Translations under genes and position numbers: made by a program
Notes under the pieces: generated by a model
What the model was told of the DNA's origin: nothing
What the model saw: only the letters and a program-made list of their open reading frames with translations
Databases searched by the model: none
In this document: positions 1-17,504 of the stretch, one piece after another
Layout of the letters: every line of letters starts with the position of its first letter
How positions within the stretch are numbered: position 1 is the first letter of the stretch
Source of the DNA: Candidatus Nitrosopumilus sp.
Lineage (GTDB): Archaea > Thermoproteota > Nitrososphaeria > Nitrososphaerales > Nitrosopumilaceae
Direction: 5' to 3'
DNA: 39,290 nucleotides
Assembly (NCBI GenBank): GCA_020431995.1
Contig: JAGQHE010000038.1
Coordinates: 1-39,290, forward strand

Positions 1-171
1 GGTGGGCAGACGGAACAATTACTGAATCTGAATTCCTGTCTGGCATCGAGTTCCTGGTTGCAAACGGAATCATCGGGGTTCCGCCAACATCTGTATCTTC
101 TGAATCATCAGAAGGCGTTCCTGCCTGGGTGAAGAACAATGCAGGCTGGTGGGCAGACGGAACAATTACTG
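1..171 (+). repeat. Tandem coding repeat, period 147 nt
   Basis: Bases 1-24 recur without mismatch at 148-171, and the frame is kept (147 nt = 49 codons). Sequence after the identical block diverges at synonymous and conservative positions. This is a repeated protein module, not a mobile element. Confidence 0.85.
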
Positions 172-800
172 ACAGCGAGTTTCTAAATGGTATCCAGTAT
201 CTGATTAAGACTGGGCTGATATCTGTCTCTGCAAGCCCCCAGCCCCCAAAGGTGACATCTGAAGCGCCAAAAAGCACAGACTCTGAACTGGCCGCACTTG
301 AAGCGCAACTAGAAGAATGCTCTGAAATCAAAAAAGCCTATGAAAGGCTTAACTGTGAAAGATCTGCAAAGGACAAAATCACTGCATATAATTTCAAACT
401 GATCTCAGATGCTTATCAAGCTGGCCCTGTTACCTTCTTTTGGCCTGGTCTTGGGACTGAGGGAAACAGCTTTGAAATTACGTCCTCTGGTCAAGCAATG
501 CTCCGACTAAGAATATTGGTTGAGAATACTGGCTCTCAGACTGAGGCGCTGTTTTGCACGGGGCCTGCCGTATGTAACTACGATGTCACAAATGGCGTCA
601 AGGATTTTAAATATTCAGGAATGGATTTCACCAATGGCCAAGTTGTAATAAAGCCAGGAGAAACTAAGATGTTCAATATGTTCTTTGGACCAAATATTGG
701 AGGTGGAGGAACTACATTTGAATATGACTCCGAAAAAGATTACTACTTTAGAGGCAGTGAATCATTTGGAAGCGTTTCTATCCCGTTAAATTTGGGATAG
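3..800 (+). CDS. Exported repeat protein, C-terminal part (partial)
   Basis: The frame is open from the left edge, so the start and any signal peptide lie outside the window. The visible protein begins with two copies of a roughly 49-residue repeat centred on WWADGTITDSEFLNGIQYL (the first copy is cut by the edge). The repeat is familiar from predicted secreted or cell-surface proteins of Nitrosopumilus-type archaea. A short Ser/Pro linker follows, then a Glu/Lys-rich helical stretch (ELAALEAQLEECSEIKKAYE), then about 130 residues of beta-rich sequence that could be an Ig-like domain. There are no catalytic motifs. A binding or surface-structural role is inference. A T-run follows the stop. 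Confidence 0.75.
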   Translation, partial: WADGTITESEFLSGIEFLVANGIIGVPPTSVSSESSEGVPAWVKNNAGWWADGTITDSEFLNGIQYLIKTGLISVSASPQPPKVTSEAPKSTDSELAALEAQLEECSEIKKAYERLNCERSAKDKITAYNFKLISDAYQAGPVTFFWPGLGTEGNSFEITSSGQAMLRLRILVENTGSQTEALFCTGPAVCNYDVTNGVKDFKYSGMDFTNGQVVIKPGETKMFNMFFGPNIGGGGTTFEYDSEKDYYFRGSESFGSVSIPLNLG

Positions 801-2932: not shown

Positions 2933-2970
2933 GTTAGCACTAGTCATAACTTTAAGAGATGTTCATATAT
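2933..2970 (+). promoter_or_regulatory. Promoter A: GTTAGCACTA element plus TATA box
   Basis: GTTAGCACTAGT at 2933-2944 is followed, 30 nt after its first base, by the TATA-like TCATATAT (2963-2970). The same decamer at the same distance from a TATA-like box occurs at 4071 and 4554. The expected transcription start is about 2990-2995, giving a leader of about 100 nt before the flavin-binding protein gene. Confidence 0.6.
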
Positions 2971-2975
2971 CAAAC

Positions 2976-3092
2976 ATGATTGGAGATGATGGGTTGAAAT
3001 CTGTTCAAAGGCGTCATAATTGTGGAAAAGAATCGCAAAGGCTGCCACGTGACTGTCTTTGCTACGAGTCATTTTTCAAACAGCCGAGGTGA
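2976..3092 (+). CDS. Possible upstream ORF before the PNPOx gene
   Basis: An open frame with ATG at 2976, or TTG at 2994 (27 nt after the centre of the TATA box, so a leaderless start would fit), gives 38 or 32 residues. It stops at 3092, four nt before the ATG of the flavin-binding gene, and its stop codon lies inside that gene's Shine-Dalgarno-like GAGGTGA. It could be a leader peptide or a chance frame in a 5' leader. The peptide resembles nothing I know. Confidence 0.25.
   Translation: MIGDDGLKSVQRRHNCGKESQRLPRDCLCYESFFKQPR
3040..3092 (+). promoter_or_regulatory. Putative leader hairpin next to a ribosome-binding site
   Basis: GGCTG (3040-3044) can pair with CAGCC (3081-3085). Nested inside, GTGACT (3049-3054) can pair with AGTCAT (3067-3072) with one G-U pair. 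The outer stem touches GAGGTGA (3086-3092), the Shine-Dalgarno-like sequence that decides the start at 3097. The structure could control access to that site. It matches no riboswitch class I recognise. Confidence 0.35.
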
Positions 3093-3096
3093 ATCC

Positions 3097-3531
3097 ATGC
3101 AGAAATTATCTCCTGATGAGTTAGACAGTATGGTTTATGATGAGAAGATTCCTATCAGAATTGCTTTTGTCAAGCCTGACGGAATTCCAAACGTTGTTTC
3201 CCTCTGGCATGTTATACTGAATGGAAAAATTTACTGTGCTACACAAAAATCTGCAAAAATAGTCTCATTTCTCAAAAATAACCCTAGATGTGGATTTGAA
3301 ATCGCATCTGATAAACCTCCTTACAGGGGAGTACGTGGGGAAGGGCACGTCAACATTGTTGAAGAAAATGCAGTGGATATTCTTGAACTCTTGATCGAAA
3401 AATATCTGGGAAAAAAAGAATCAGCGTTATCAAAATTTCTTAGAGACAAATCCGCATCTGAGGTATCTCTTGAAATCACTCCGCAAAAAATTCTACATTT
3501 CAATTATTCAAAAAGAATGAGGGATATATGA
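3097..3531 (+). CDS. Pyridoxamine 5'-phosphate oxidase-like flavin-binding protein
   Basis: 144 residues with the split-barrel layout of PNPOx-related proteins: PIRIAFVKPDGIPNVVSLWH, then KIYCATQKSAKIVSFLKNNP, then the GVRGEGHVNI strand. Such proteins bind FMN or F420 and reduce or sequester varied substrates; the substrate here cannot be read from sequence. A GTG at 3022 would add 25 residues, but I chose ATG 3097 because GAGGTGA ends 4 nt before it and the extension carries no family sequence. A 41-residue zinc ribbon gene starts 3 nt after its stop, suggesting an operon. Its promoter carries the GTTAGCACTA element. Confidence 0.8.
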   Translation: MQKLSPDELDSMVYDEKIPIRIAFVKPDGIPNVVSLWHVILNGKIYCATQKSAKIVSFLKNNPRCGFEIASDKPPYRGVRGEGHVNIVEENAVDILELLIEKYLGKKESALSKFLRDKSASEVSLEITPQKILHFNYSKRMRDI

Positions 3532-3534
3532 AAA

Positions 3535-3660
3535 ATGACCGAATGTGATAGCTGCCCAACATGTGGCTCAAAAAATTTTGTAACAACTGAGAACAACACA
3601 AATTCAGGCATGATCTACAAAAACGAATGCAATAACTGCAAAAAATTCTGGTACATCTGA
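3535..3660 (+). CDS. 41-residue zinc ribbon protein
   Basis: ATG at 3535 begins 3 nt after the stop of the flavin-binding protein gene. The product has CPTCGSKNF near the N-terminus and CNNCKKFWYI at the end, two CxxC knuckles spaced like a zinc ribbon, plus an extra Cys at residue 4. This small protein is probably co-translated with its neighbour. It could be a metal-binding partner or a nucleic-acid-binding adaptor; the function is unknown. Confidence 0.7.
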   Translation: MTECDSCPTCGSKNFVTTENNTNSGMIYKNECNNCKKFWYI

Positions 3661-3708
3661 TGTCTGTGTTGATCTTTGGAAATTTTAATCCTGATTGAGG
3701 CCCTGATC

Positions 3709-4038
3709 ATGAGAATCTGGGACATTCCGCCTGAAAAACTGTGCAGAAATCATCTTCTGGGAGAGCACCGTGAACTTCATGCGATGTGGGTTGTGATTAC
3801 ACAAAAAAAGAAAGGGTATTCTATGCACCCTGAGACAATCCGTTGGAAAGGAAAACTATGTGCCCTATATCTTAGGCACGAAGCACTGGCTAAAGAAATG
3901 CGCTCTCGCGGATATGCGCATAATAGCCCACTTGACAAACAAAAAGCCACTGGGAAGCACGTTCAGGACAGATTCGTTGATTCCCCACTAAAACAAGTAT
4001 TGATTCTAAAATCAAAAAGATGCGACTGCAAAATATGA
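3709..4038 (+). CDS. Pyrimidine-dimer DNA glycosylase-like protein
   Basis: 109 residues beginning MRIWDIPPEKLCRNHLLGEH, which closely resembles proteins in the pyrimidine-dimer DNA glycosylase (T4 endonuclease V-related) family. The HLLGEHRELHAMW segment holds the helix in which the T4 enzyme carries its conserved Glu-His-Arg region. An upstream in-frame start at 3676 would add 11 hydrophobic residues, but an AT-rich box (about 3682-3688) lies 24 nt before ATG 3709, so a leaderless start there is more likely. Repair of UV photoproducts is the family role; activity of this short archaeal form is inferred. Confidence 0.7.
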   Translation: MRIWDIPPEKLCRNHLLGEHRELHAMWVVITQKKKGYSMHPETIRWKGKLCALYLRHEALAKEMRSRGYAHNSPLDKQKATGKHVQDRFVDSPLKQVLILKSKRCDCKI

Positions 4039-4070
4039 TCTGTTCTTATTGGCAGTCCGAATGCCGAATG

Positions 4071-4107
4071 GTTAGCACTAGTGTCAAAGTTATCCCTAGG
4101 TTATATG
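4071..4107 (+). promoter_or_regulatory. Promoter B: GTTAGCACTA element plus TATA box
   Basis: GTTAGCACTAGT at 4071-4082 is identical over 12 nt to promoter A. TTATATG begins at 4101, 30 nt after the first base of the element. The GTG at 4127 lies about 24 nt after the box, fitting a leaderless start. Confidence 0.65.
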
Positions 4108-4126
4108 CTATGATGCCTAAATACGA

Positions 4127-4441
4127 GTGAGGAGAAATGCAACAAACAAAAAAACACCACAGCTCAAGTTTATGGCGATCTTGGCTGCCGCAACTTCAGT
4201 AATACTGATCTTGACAATCACTCCTTGGAATATCGTTCCAATTCAAATTACTGAAGACGTGACTGTCATCGCTGTTACGGATTTTGGCTGTGTTGCAGAG
4301 TCTGTCATGGGGCTCTCTGTCGTTGTTTCTGACTGTAGCGCAAAAGTTGGAGATGTAACATCTGCAACTTTTTACGTTCCTGCCAAGGAACAAAACGAAT
4401 ATGATAGAATTCAGGATAAGCTAGCAATGGTTAATCCATAA
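4127..4441 (+). CDS. Membrane-anchored small protein, unknown
   Basis: 104 residues with a basic N-terminus (RRNATNKK), one hydrophobic segment at about residues 14-38, and a short outer domain with two Cys (GCVAESVMG and SDCSAKVGD) that could form a disulphide. No family was recognised. GTG is the only usable start after the in-frame stop at 4118, and it sits at leaderless distance from promoter B. A six-codon ORF beginning at 4110 stops over this GTG (GTGA), but its ATG is too close to the TATA box to be in the transcript. Confidence 0.6.
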   Translation: MRRNATNKKTPQLKFMAILAAATSVILILTITPWNIVPIQITEDVTVIAVTDFGCVAESVMGLSVVVSDCSAKVGDVTSATFYVPAKEQNEYDRIQDKLAMVNP

Positions 4442-4506
4442 CTCTATCTTTAAAATTTATTTTTCAAATTATGATTTTTTATAATATCTCCTGTGTTTAA
4501 TGCTTG

Positions 4507-4551
4507 ATGGATTTTTTTGATCCTCCCCAGTACGATTACAATTATTCATAA
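4507..4551 (+). CDS. Possible 14-residue leaderless micropeptide
   Basis: TTTATAATAT (about 4477-4486) is a strong TATA-like box, and ATG 4507 follows its centre by 25 nt, the spacing seen at leaderless genes here. The frame MDFFDPPQYDYNYS stops at 4551, three bases before the next GTTAGCACTA element. It may be a real peptide or a promoter for a non-coding transcript. Length alone cannot decide. Confidence 0.25.
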   Translation: MDFFDPPQYDYNYS

Positions 4552-4553
4552 AA

Positions 4554-4590
4554 GTTAGCACTATGAAAAAAACTTGCTTTTGGTTAAAAG
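4554..4590 (+). promoter_or_regulatory. Promoter C: GTTAGCACTA element plus TATA box
   Basis: GTTAGCACTA at 4554-4563 is followed by TTAAAAG starting at 4584, again 30 nt after the first base of the element. The expected transcript start is near ATG 4612 (short leader ORF), upstream of the membrane protein at 4644. Confidence 0.6.
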
Positions 4591-4611: not shown

Positions 4612-4647
4612 ATGGGTAACTGCATTTTACGGAATGATTCCAAATGA
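4612..4647 (+). CDS. 11-residue leader ORF overlapping the 4644 gene
   Basis: ATG 4612 is 25 nt after the centre of the promoter C TATA box. The frame MGNCILRNDSK stops at TGA 4645-4647, overlapping the ATG of the membrane protein gene (ATGA). This arrangement suggests leaderless translation of a short peptide followed by re-initiation. Coding status is unproven. Confidence 0.35.
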   Translation: MGNCILRNDSK

Positions 4648-5276
4648 AGGGCCATGTGGAGTCATTGATCGTCTTTTCATTAATGGCCGGAATCCTCCTG
4701 CCTGCCAGACTCCTTTTCGTTCAATATGTTTCGGATGATTGGCTTGGTTCCTTTGGTGTGATATCTGCACTTTCACTGTCTGTGATAATTCTCGTAAAGA
4801 AGAAAAAACTTGGCGCGTTTGGTCCTATGCTTGAGCGGCAAATGTACAAATTTCAGGAGGGTAAACGTGGAATTCTGATTTTTGGTGAATCTGTTTTTCT
4901 TCTTTTGTTATTGGGCTGTATGATATTTGCGATTCATCAGGGCAATCTTGCTTCCACTGATCTTGATGACTTATCCCCTGACAATTCGCCCTCTGCCAGT
5001 TTGCCTGATGACATACTGGATTATGCGGATGGTTGGGGTGTTGAGGATTGGTTATACGGGTTTTTAATGGCACCTGTGGGGTTTTTAACGGCATTTCCTC
5101 AAATGAGCATCGTTATTGCCACTGTTGATCAAAGATTAGATGGGTGGCTAATGCATTTCTATACTGTAGGGTTCGTTGAATATGTGGAGTTATTAGGAAT
5201 TTTAATTTTCTACCGGCTCTCTTTTTCTAGAAAACCCAGTCCGTCATCTACTGTTCATGCAAAGACTCCTGTCTAG
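4644..5276 (+). CDS. Multi-pass membrane protein, unknown
   Basis: 210 residues. Hydrophobic segments lie at about 7-27, 36-52, 78-98 and 180-196, with a weaker one at 139-163. An acidic, Asp/Ser/Pro-rich loop (about 104-126) lies between the third and fourth strong segments, and the tail is Ser/Pro-rich. No known domain was recognised. An in-frame TGA at 4635 excludes an earlier start. Expression is probably driven by promoter C, which it shares in type with the flavin-binding protein and the 4127 gene. It converges on cysS with a 66-nt gap containing T-runs. Confidence 0.6.
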   Translation: MKGHVESLIVFSLMAGILLPARLLFVQYVSDDWLGSFGVISALSLSVIILVKKKKLGAFGPMLERQMYKFQEGKRGILIFGESVFLLLLLGCMIFAIHQGNLASTDLDDLSPDNSPSASLPDDILDYADGWGVEDWLYGFLMAPVGFLTAFPQMSIVIATVDQRLDGWLMHFYTVGFVEYVELLGILIFYRLSFSRKPSPSSTVHAKTPV

Positions 5277-17441: not shown

Positions 17442-17504
17442 ATGTCAAAGTATGGAAAACAAACTTACGTTTTGGAATTATTGGTTAGCAGGATGTATCT
17501 TTAA
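17442..17504 (+). CDS. 20-residue leader ORF upstream of TFB
   Basis: ATG 17442 lies 25 nt after the centre of the TATA-like box at 17413-17421, as at leaderless genes. The frame MSKYGKQTYVLELLVSRMYL stops 11 nt before the TFB ATG. It may be a translated leader that tunes TFB production; this is inference from position. Confidence 0.35.
   Translation: MSKYGKQTYVLELLVSRMYL

Follow-up and report, generated by a model that had tools for sequence, protein, structure and literature searches.

A decamer repeated upstream of three transcription units

The stretch of DNA analysed (hereafter, the window) comprises 39,290 nt of a Candidatus Nitrosopumilus sp. genome (GenBank assembly GCA_020431995.1, contig JAGQHE010000038.1, positions 1 to 39,290 of the forward strand). 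The decamer GTTAGCACTA occurs in it as an exact match at positions 2933, 4071 and 4554, always on the plus strand, and a scan of the window allowing up to one mismatch returned no further match. The T that opens a TATA-like box (TTCATATA, TTATAT and TTAAAA, respectively) lies exactly 30 nt downstream of the decamer's first base in all three instances. A first-pass annotation, made from sequence alone, had claimed both this arrangement and the absence of the decamer before any other gene of the window, and both claims held; the look-alike at position 17484 reads GTTAGCAGGA. The genes and features are listed below, where distal and proximal boxes are the two halves of the bipartite element described in the next section.

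129..800, plus strand: NAGWWADG-repeat protein; its 5′ side is cut by the contig start and its own promoter is outside the window; regulon member in relatives
2933..2943, plus strand: distal box, site 1 (GTTAGCACTAG); precedes the zinc-ribbon/PNPOx unit; kept in 22/22 PNPOx orthologs examined
2963..2971, plus strand: TATA-like box, site 1 (TTCATATA form); proximal repeat degenerate; in relatives, GAGCACTA-TTCATATA
3022..3531, plus strand: PNPOx / F420-dependent PPOX-class protein (Pfam PF01243; NCBIfam TIGR03618 below cut-off)
3538..3660, plus strand: small zinc-ribbon protein of the PNPOx unit (Cys pattern; Pfam matches weak)
3676..4038, plus strand: pyrimidine dimer DNA glycosylase (UV repair) of the PNPOx unit (Pfam PF03013, E 5.9e-27)
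4071..4081, plus strand: distal box, site 2 (GTTAGCACTAG); kept upstream of 104-aa orthologs
4090..4099, plus strand: proximal box, site 2 (TTATCCCTAG), 18 bp after the distal box; in relatives, TTACCTCTAG, TGGTCACTAG
4101..4106, plus strand: TATA-like box, site 2 (TTATAT)
4127..4441, plus strand: ORF for a 104-aa membrane-anchored protein with two Cys; conserved element target
4554..4563, plus strand: distal box, site 3 (GTTAGCACTA); precedes the gene for the 210-aa membrane protein; TTRGCACTA without mismatch in the 13 closest loci
4584..4590, plus strand: TATA-like box, site 3 (TTAAAAG)
4612..4647, plus strand: leader ORF (MGNCILRNDSK), starting at +57; its stop overlaps the ATG of the 210-aa gene
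4644..5276, plus strand: ORF for a 210-aa multi-pass membrane protein

The 104-aa protein has no Pfam match, and the 210-aa protein has none in either Pfam or NCBIfam. PNPOx orthologs start at MQKL, and the real start of the PNPOx gene may be further in than 3022.

Some structural details emerge when these genes are set beside their relatives. A leader ORF of 7–15 codons precedes the 210-aa gene in most relatives (L263-L268, L271), exactly 57 nt from the distal box, and the sequence of the leader peptide is not conserved. Orthologs of the 104-aa gene begin with ATG CAA CAA ACA at +65; the window copy (4127-4160) has that ATG out of frame, a CAA/AAC-rich run being some 7 bases shorter, and the reading frame is regained with a GTG at +55. 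This frame shift is either a real indel or an assembly error. In relatives, the space from the element to PNPOx also holds a gene for a small, Cys-rich zinc-ribbon protein, of which the window (2994-3090) keeps a 32-codon, TTG-started remnant (LKSVQRRHNCGKESQ...).

GTTAGCACTA is the sole 10-mer in the window with at least three same-strand copies within 2 kb and a TATA-like hexamer at one common offset, and Markov controls yielded no comparable 10-mer (0/30). The first-pass annotation had held that equal abundance of the decamer elsewhere would refute a regulatory role. Genome-wide, the bare decamer is indeed not enriched (4 copies vs 9 for the reversed-pattern control), and the fourth copy, C110:8491, is inside a coding ORF. 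The signal resides in position, spacing and conservation, and the count is not informative: we accept the decamer as real because it is conserved, where word count alone would not convince. The lack of enrichment is what speaks for a coincidence, or for a local promoter duplication without regulatory meaning; against either stands the fact that, throughout the family and the phylum, the element is conserved at orthologous promoters that are unlinked, which leaves this explanation next to no room.

The decamer is one half of a bipartite, TATA-phased element

In relatives, GTTAGCACTA is seen to be the distal half of a conserved bipartite element in fixed phase with the TATA box. The complete element consists of TTRGCACTAG and, 18-19 bp later, a second copy, TTAKCAYTAG, which abuts the TATA box on its upstream side. 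The distal box is near-invariant and its TATA distance fixed across promoters, and the proximal box is variable: it is degenerate at all three window promoters, where it is evident only from relatives, and is poor at sites 1 and 3 as well as at many photolyase units (see below). The initial statement that the sequence between decamer and TATA box is not conserved must be amended on this point. Most commonly, the start codon lies ~57 nt from the element's first base, implying that the transcripts are leaderless or nearly so.

Orthologs of the PNPOx protein were collected by protein search in genomes of the same genus. The element was present at the expected distance to a TATA-like box in 22/22 promoters examined (the window's own counted), in the variant forms TTAACATTA in one and TTACCACTA in another; in many of these loci, the promoter of the next gene also carries it. 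Upstream of the 210-aa membrane protein gene, exact TTRGCACTA occurs at the same TATA distance at 13/13 closest loci (again counting the window's own); the element is missing at all seven distant homologs of this protein, whose genomes lack the regulator described below. With many loci of the 104-aa gene, all three window genes have orthologs whose promoters keep both element and spacing; lack of such conservation had been named as a second ground for refutation. What defines an archaeal regulon operator, i.e., sequence and spacing kept at orthologous promoters and missing where the regulator is missing, is met. The proposal of a regulator-binding site in fixed phase with the promoter is supported by comparative genomics, with the qualification that the site is bipartite; there are no binding data.

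In four Nitrosopelagicus-like loci (L092, L093, L094, L152), a perfect bipartite element with TATA box stands upstream of conserved sequence in which no ORF is obvious (GTGTATAGTTATA...); this sequence could possibly encode a very short peptide or give rise to a small RNA.

Reach of the element

The bipartite pattern gave 50 matches vs 5 in the reversed control in 60 genomes of the genus, and the TATA-extended pattern, TTAGCACTAN{12,15}CACTAN{1,2}TWWA, gave ~80 matches vs 1 in the control in 150 genomes of the family. A search of 84,980 prokaryote species genomes with the strict bipartite pattern returned 51 stretches, 51/51 consistent with Nitrososphaerota; judged by record titles, no match amongst these 84,980 genomes fell outside that phylum. 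Matches occurred in Nitrosopumilus, Nitrosarchaeum, Nitrosopelagicus, Cenarchaeum, Nitrososphaeraceae and Nitrosopolaris, and two stretches titled only “archaeon” encode the B12-binding regulator. In all likelihood, though without binding data, the element is a real DNA control site confined to the phylum of ammonia-oxidizing archaea.

A regulon with a probable light/UV theme

Scanning the genome and related genomes located the element at many further genes that share a functional theme. The small regulon of three units envisaged at first holds as a regulon but is larger than three genes. In addition to the PNPOx/zinc-ribbon/pyrimidine-dimer-glycosylase unit and the 104-aa and 210-aa membrane proteins, genes preceded by the element encode NAGWWADG-repeat secreted proteins, an NAD(P)-epimerase, a phytoene-desaturase-like FAD oxidoreductase (amine-oxidase/desaturase-like), UDG, a nitroreductase, a DUF1059 protein and several conserved unknowns, as well as a B12-binding protein of ~280 aa. 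Most of them are gathered in one ~20 kb island in complete genomes. Photolyase is present in 17/60 genomes of the genus, and all photolyase genomes that were also scored for the regulator have it; the photolyase transcription unit opens with a distal box in ~10/15 loci, usually with a poor proximal copy.

Because pyrimidine-dimer glycosylase, photolyase units, UDG and an FAD desaturase-like enzyme are among the targets, the theme of the regulon is likely a light/UV response, a better reading than the “stress or redox response” suggested from the window; responsiveness to light itself is inferred. A likeness of a ~185-aa regulon protein to the DICT domain was considered and dropped, as Pfam gave no match even at E 10.

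A B12-binding protein co-occurs with the element and carries it

The ~280-aa protein combines the Pfam domains B12-binding (PF02310) and B12-binding_2 (PF02607). Its gene is outside the window, elsewhere in the genome (G000:C90:4479-5315). For 43 promoters of this candidate regulator, chosen by protein only, we scored the bipartite element as present when at least 13/15 positions matched: it was found 56-59 nt from the ATG in 38/43, vs 0.05% of shuffles. Amongst 150 genomes of the family, 45 have both element and regulator gene, three the element only, 34 the gene only and 68 neither; the corresponding numbers in the genus are 24, 0, 12 and 19. At least one of the three element-only family genomes (G067) looks like a chance match, and the 34 gene-only genomes are mostly accounted for by sites, e.g., TTAGCATTAG, that the strict pattern does not catch. 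For most regulon genes, close orthologs are likewise missing from genomes that have no regulator; where such a genome does retain a distant epimerase, the promoter of that gene has no element. Shared ancestry inflates the p-values of co-occurrence, as related genomes are not independent; the pattern nonetheless recurs in several genera.

Some genomes harbour a second, diverged regulator paralog of ~38% identity (G006:C1:795431-796264, G023:C14:32045-32875, and others); the element is missing at the one promoter of it that was checked (L261). A TFIIB-family (TFB) paralog is found near the regulator in several genomes (L079:4839-5744, L241:3462-4373, L244:13929-14849), and a Peripla_BP_2 substrate-binding protein adjoins the epimerase/regulator pair (L079:145-1062, L241:9961-10902, L244:9859-10788). 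The latter is BtuF-like by appearance and may possibly tie the island to cobalamin uptake.

The element could have a different reader, e.g., a dedicated TFB paralog or an unidentified factor, with the B12 protein merely one of the targets. In favour of this, the proximal box coincides with the BRE position read by TFB, the regulator or island has a TFIIB-family gene as neighbour, and there is no DNA-binding evidence for the B12 protein; this neighbouring TFB paralog is the chief competitor as reader of the proximal box. However, a TFB reader leaves unexplained the distal copy of the same sequence, which is better conserved than the proximal one, and no properly oriented element was present upstream of the TFB gene in the loci mapped. 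In nearly every genome, a site is found at the B12 gene itself, and this gene tracks the presence of the element. We deem a different reader unlikely.

The candidate regulator has a CarH-type cobalamin domain and an unassigned N-terminus

Both signatures that define CarH (PMC8156234) are met in an alignment of 16 regulators. In the adenosyl-capping motif Wx9EH, W128, E138 and H139 are invariant; in the cobalamin motif ExHx2Gx41SxV/Tx22-27GG, E173, H175, S220, T222, G248 and G249 are invariant and G178 is conserved at ≥90%, with spacings of 41 and 25. The 16 sequences also retain the GxxW/EH/GxxH light signature (PMC11796333). The cobalt-ligating His next to the Trp of light-state TtCarH is missing; the generality of this bis-His state has been doubted (PMC11796333). 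In an AlphaFold model (pLDDT 87), the closest solved structures are photocobilin and Thermus CarH, and Foldseek matched the model to TtCarH structures at E ~1e-11, fulfilling the expectation of a four-helix bundle plus a Rossmann cobalamin domain. CarH also ranked first in NCBIfam, far below the cut-off. The C-terminal half is likely an adenosylcobalamin light-sensing domain of the CarH/photocobilin type, as predicted by the model; that it responds to light is inferred.

Alternatively, the protein might sense cobalamin supply or redox state rather than light, the regulon being a general oxidative-damage response. Cobalamin-binding domains are not restricted to photosensory proteins, the targets include several generic flavin/F420 redox proteins, and a Peripla_BP_2 binding protein adjoins the regulator. 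Against this, Wx9EH is invariant, a motif described as CarH-defining and missing in MetH (PMC8156234), and UV-specific repair enzymes are amongst the targets. This alternative appears improbable.

The N-terminal 66 residues form, in the model, a basic three-stranded beta-sheet (~+7 in 41 residues). The domain is not MerR and has no Pfam, PDB, DNA-binding family or fold match; a fold search with it alone returned only noise. A resemblance to the N-termini of IS1634-type transposases was considered, and no search result backs this likeness.

A putative light-responsive operator

We favour, by a modest margin, the reading of the element as the operator of an autoregulated, CarH-like, probably light-sensing regulator. 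The conserved element, its spacing, the regulon content, the regulator's own site, the co-occurrence and the CarH signatures have been established computationally; direct binding, the light response and the sign of regulation are inferred in the absence of binding data. The basic N-terminal beta-sheet domain would read the DNA. CarH occupies direct repeats overlapping the promoter as an AdoCbl-dependent tetramer in the dark and is released by light. By analogy, in the dark, an AdoCbl-loaded oligomer sitting on the two direct repeats, the proximal of which occupies the BRE position, would block TFB/TBP. Light would cleave the Co-C bond, the oligomer would fall apart, and the genes for repair and photoprotection, together with the regulator's own, would be transcribed by derepression. 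Simple BRE occlusion is hard to square with the poor proximal box of window sites 1 and 3 and of many photolyase units, and we prefer repression to activation only slightly, leaving the sign open.

Indeed, the same cobalamin regulator may possibly be an activator which, from the distal box and in fixed phase, brings TBP/TFB to promoters that lack a normal BRE, in light or upon a change of AdoCbl state. In support of this, the distal box is near-invariant at a fixed TATA distance everywhere and the proximal box is variable, even poor at sites 1 and 3 of the window; factors that contact the basal machinery typically do so in fixed phase. On the other hand, a second copy of the same sequence covers the BRE position, the known CarH proteins repress in the dark (PMC8156234), and a weak proximal box, as at window-type promoters, may simply mean weak repression.

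The inhibition of archaeal ammonia oxidation by light helps to set where in the ocean nitrification takes place. How ammonia-oxidizing archaea sense light is, to our knowledge, not known, and the literature searched is also silent; the element may be a route by which these light-sensitive organisms respond to sunlight. For the broader proposition, i.e., that they have a dedicated B12 photoreceptor regulator, with a DNA-binding domain outside known families, that governs a TATA-phased photoprotection regulon via TTAGCACTAG repeats, we see the case as evenly balanced. No archaeal B12 photoreceptor is known to us. If true, cobalamin photoreception would extend to archaea with a new DNA-binding domain, and this would be one of the few regulons defined in the phylum of ammonia-oxidizing archaea. 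A sensor candidate, an operator and a target list make light sensing directly testable in cultured Nitrosopumilus.

Comparison with known systems

The open-access literature searched holds no description of an archaeal cobalamin photoreceptor or of this motif; a text search for TTAGCACTA returned unrelated papers only, and our search for diel or light transcriptomes of these archaea turned up none with usable data. Amongst ammonia-oxidizing archaea, common upstream motifs have been reported for Nitrososphaera viennensis under copper limitation, TTCSGSMTTTGWACYANT and RATTTAAABATAGATTTAAATAATAAS (PMC7785015); their sequences are dissimilar to ours, ruling them out as the same element. Archaeal upstream-activator sites at the BRE/TATA edge (e.g., Ptr2 of Methanocaldococcus) are positioned, like our element, at a fixed distance upstream of BRE/TATA. 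However, those known to us are palindromic HTH sites, whereas here a direct repeat is found and activation has not been shown.

With CarH/LitR, the bacterial B12-dependent photoreceptor repressors, the archaeal system shares the B12-binding_2 and B12-binding domains with invariant Wx9EH and ExHx2Gx41SxTx25GG, a direct-repeat operator overlapping the promoter (a defining trait that is met, the proximal repeat here abutting TATA), a target set of the repair/carotenoid type, and the inclusion of its own gene in the regulon. It differs by the archaeal TATA/BRE promoter, by repeats 18-19 bp apart vs the 11 bp tandem of CarH, by the lack of the His after the Trp, and by a light response that is only inferred here. 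The archaeal regulator has a basic three-stranded sheet of no known family in place of the MerR winged helix, and we do not count it as a member of the CarH/LitR family because this defining domain was tested for and not met. Photocobilins (SasPcob, PDB 8j2w/8j2x) are the best structural neighbours of the cobalamin domain and likewise have no His next to the Trp. They carry a C-terminal biliverdin-binding domain and have no established DNA-binding role, whereas the archaeal regulator is without such an extension and is linked to promoters.
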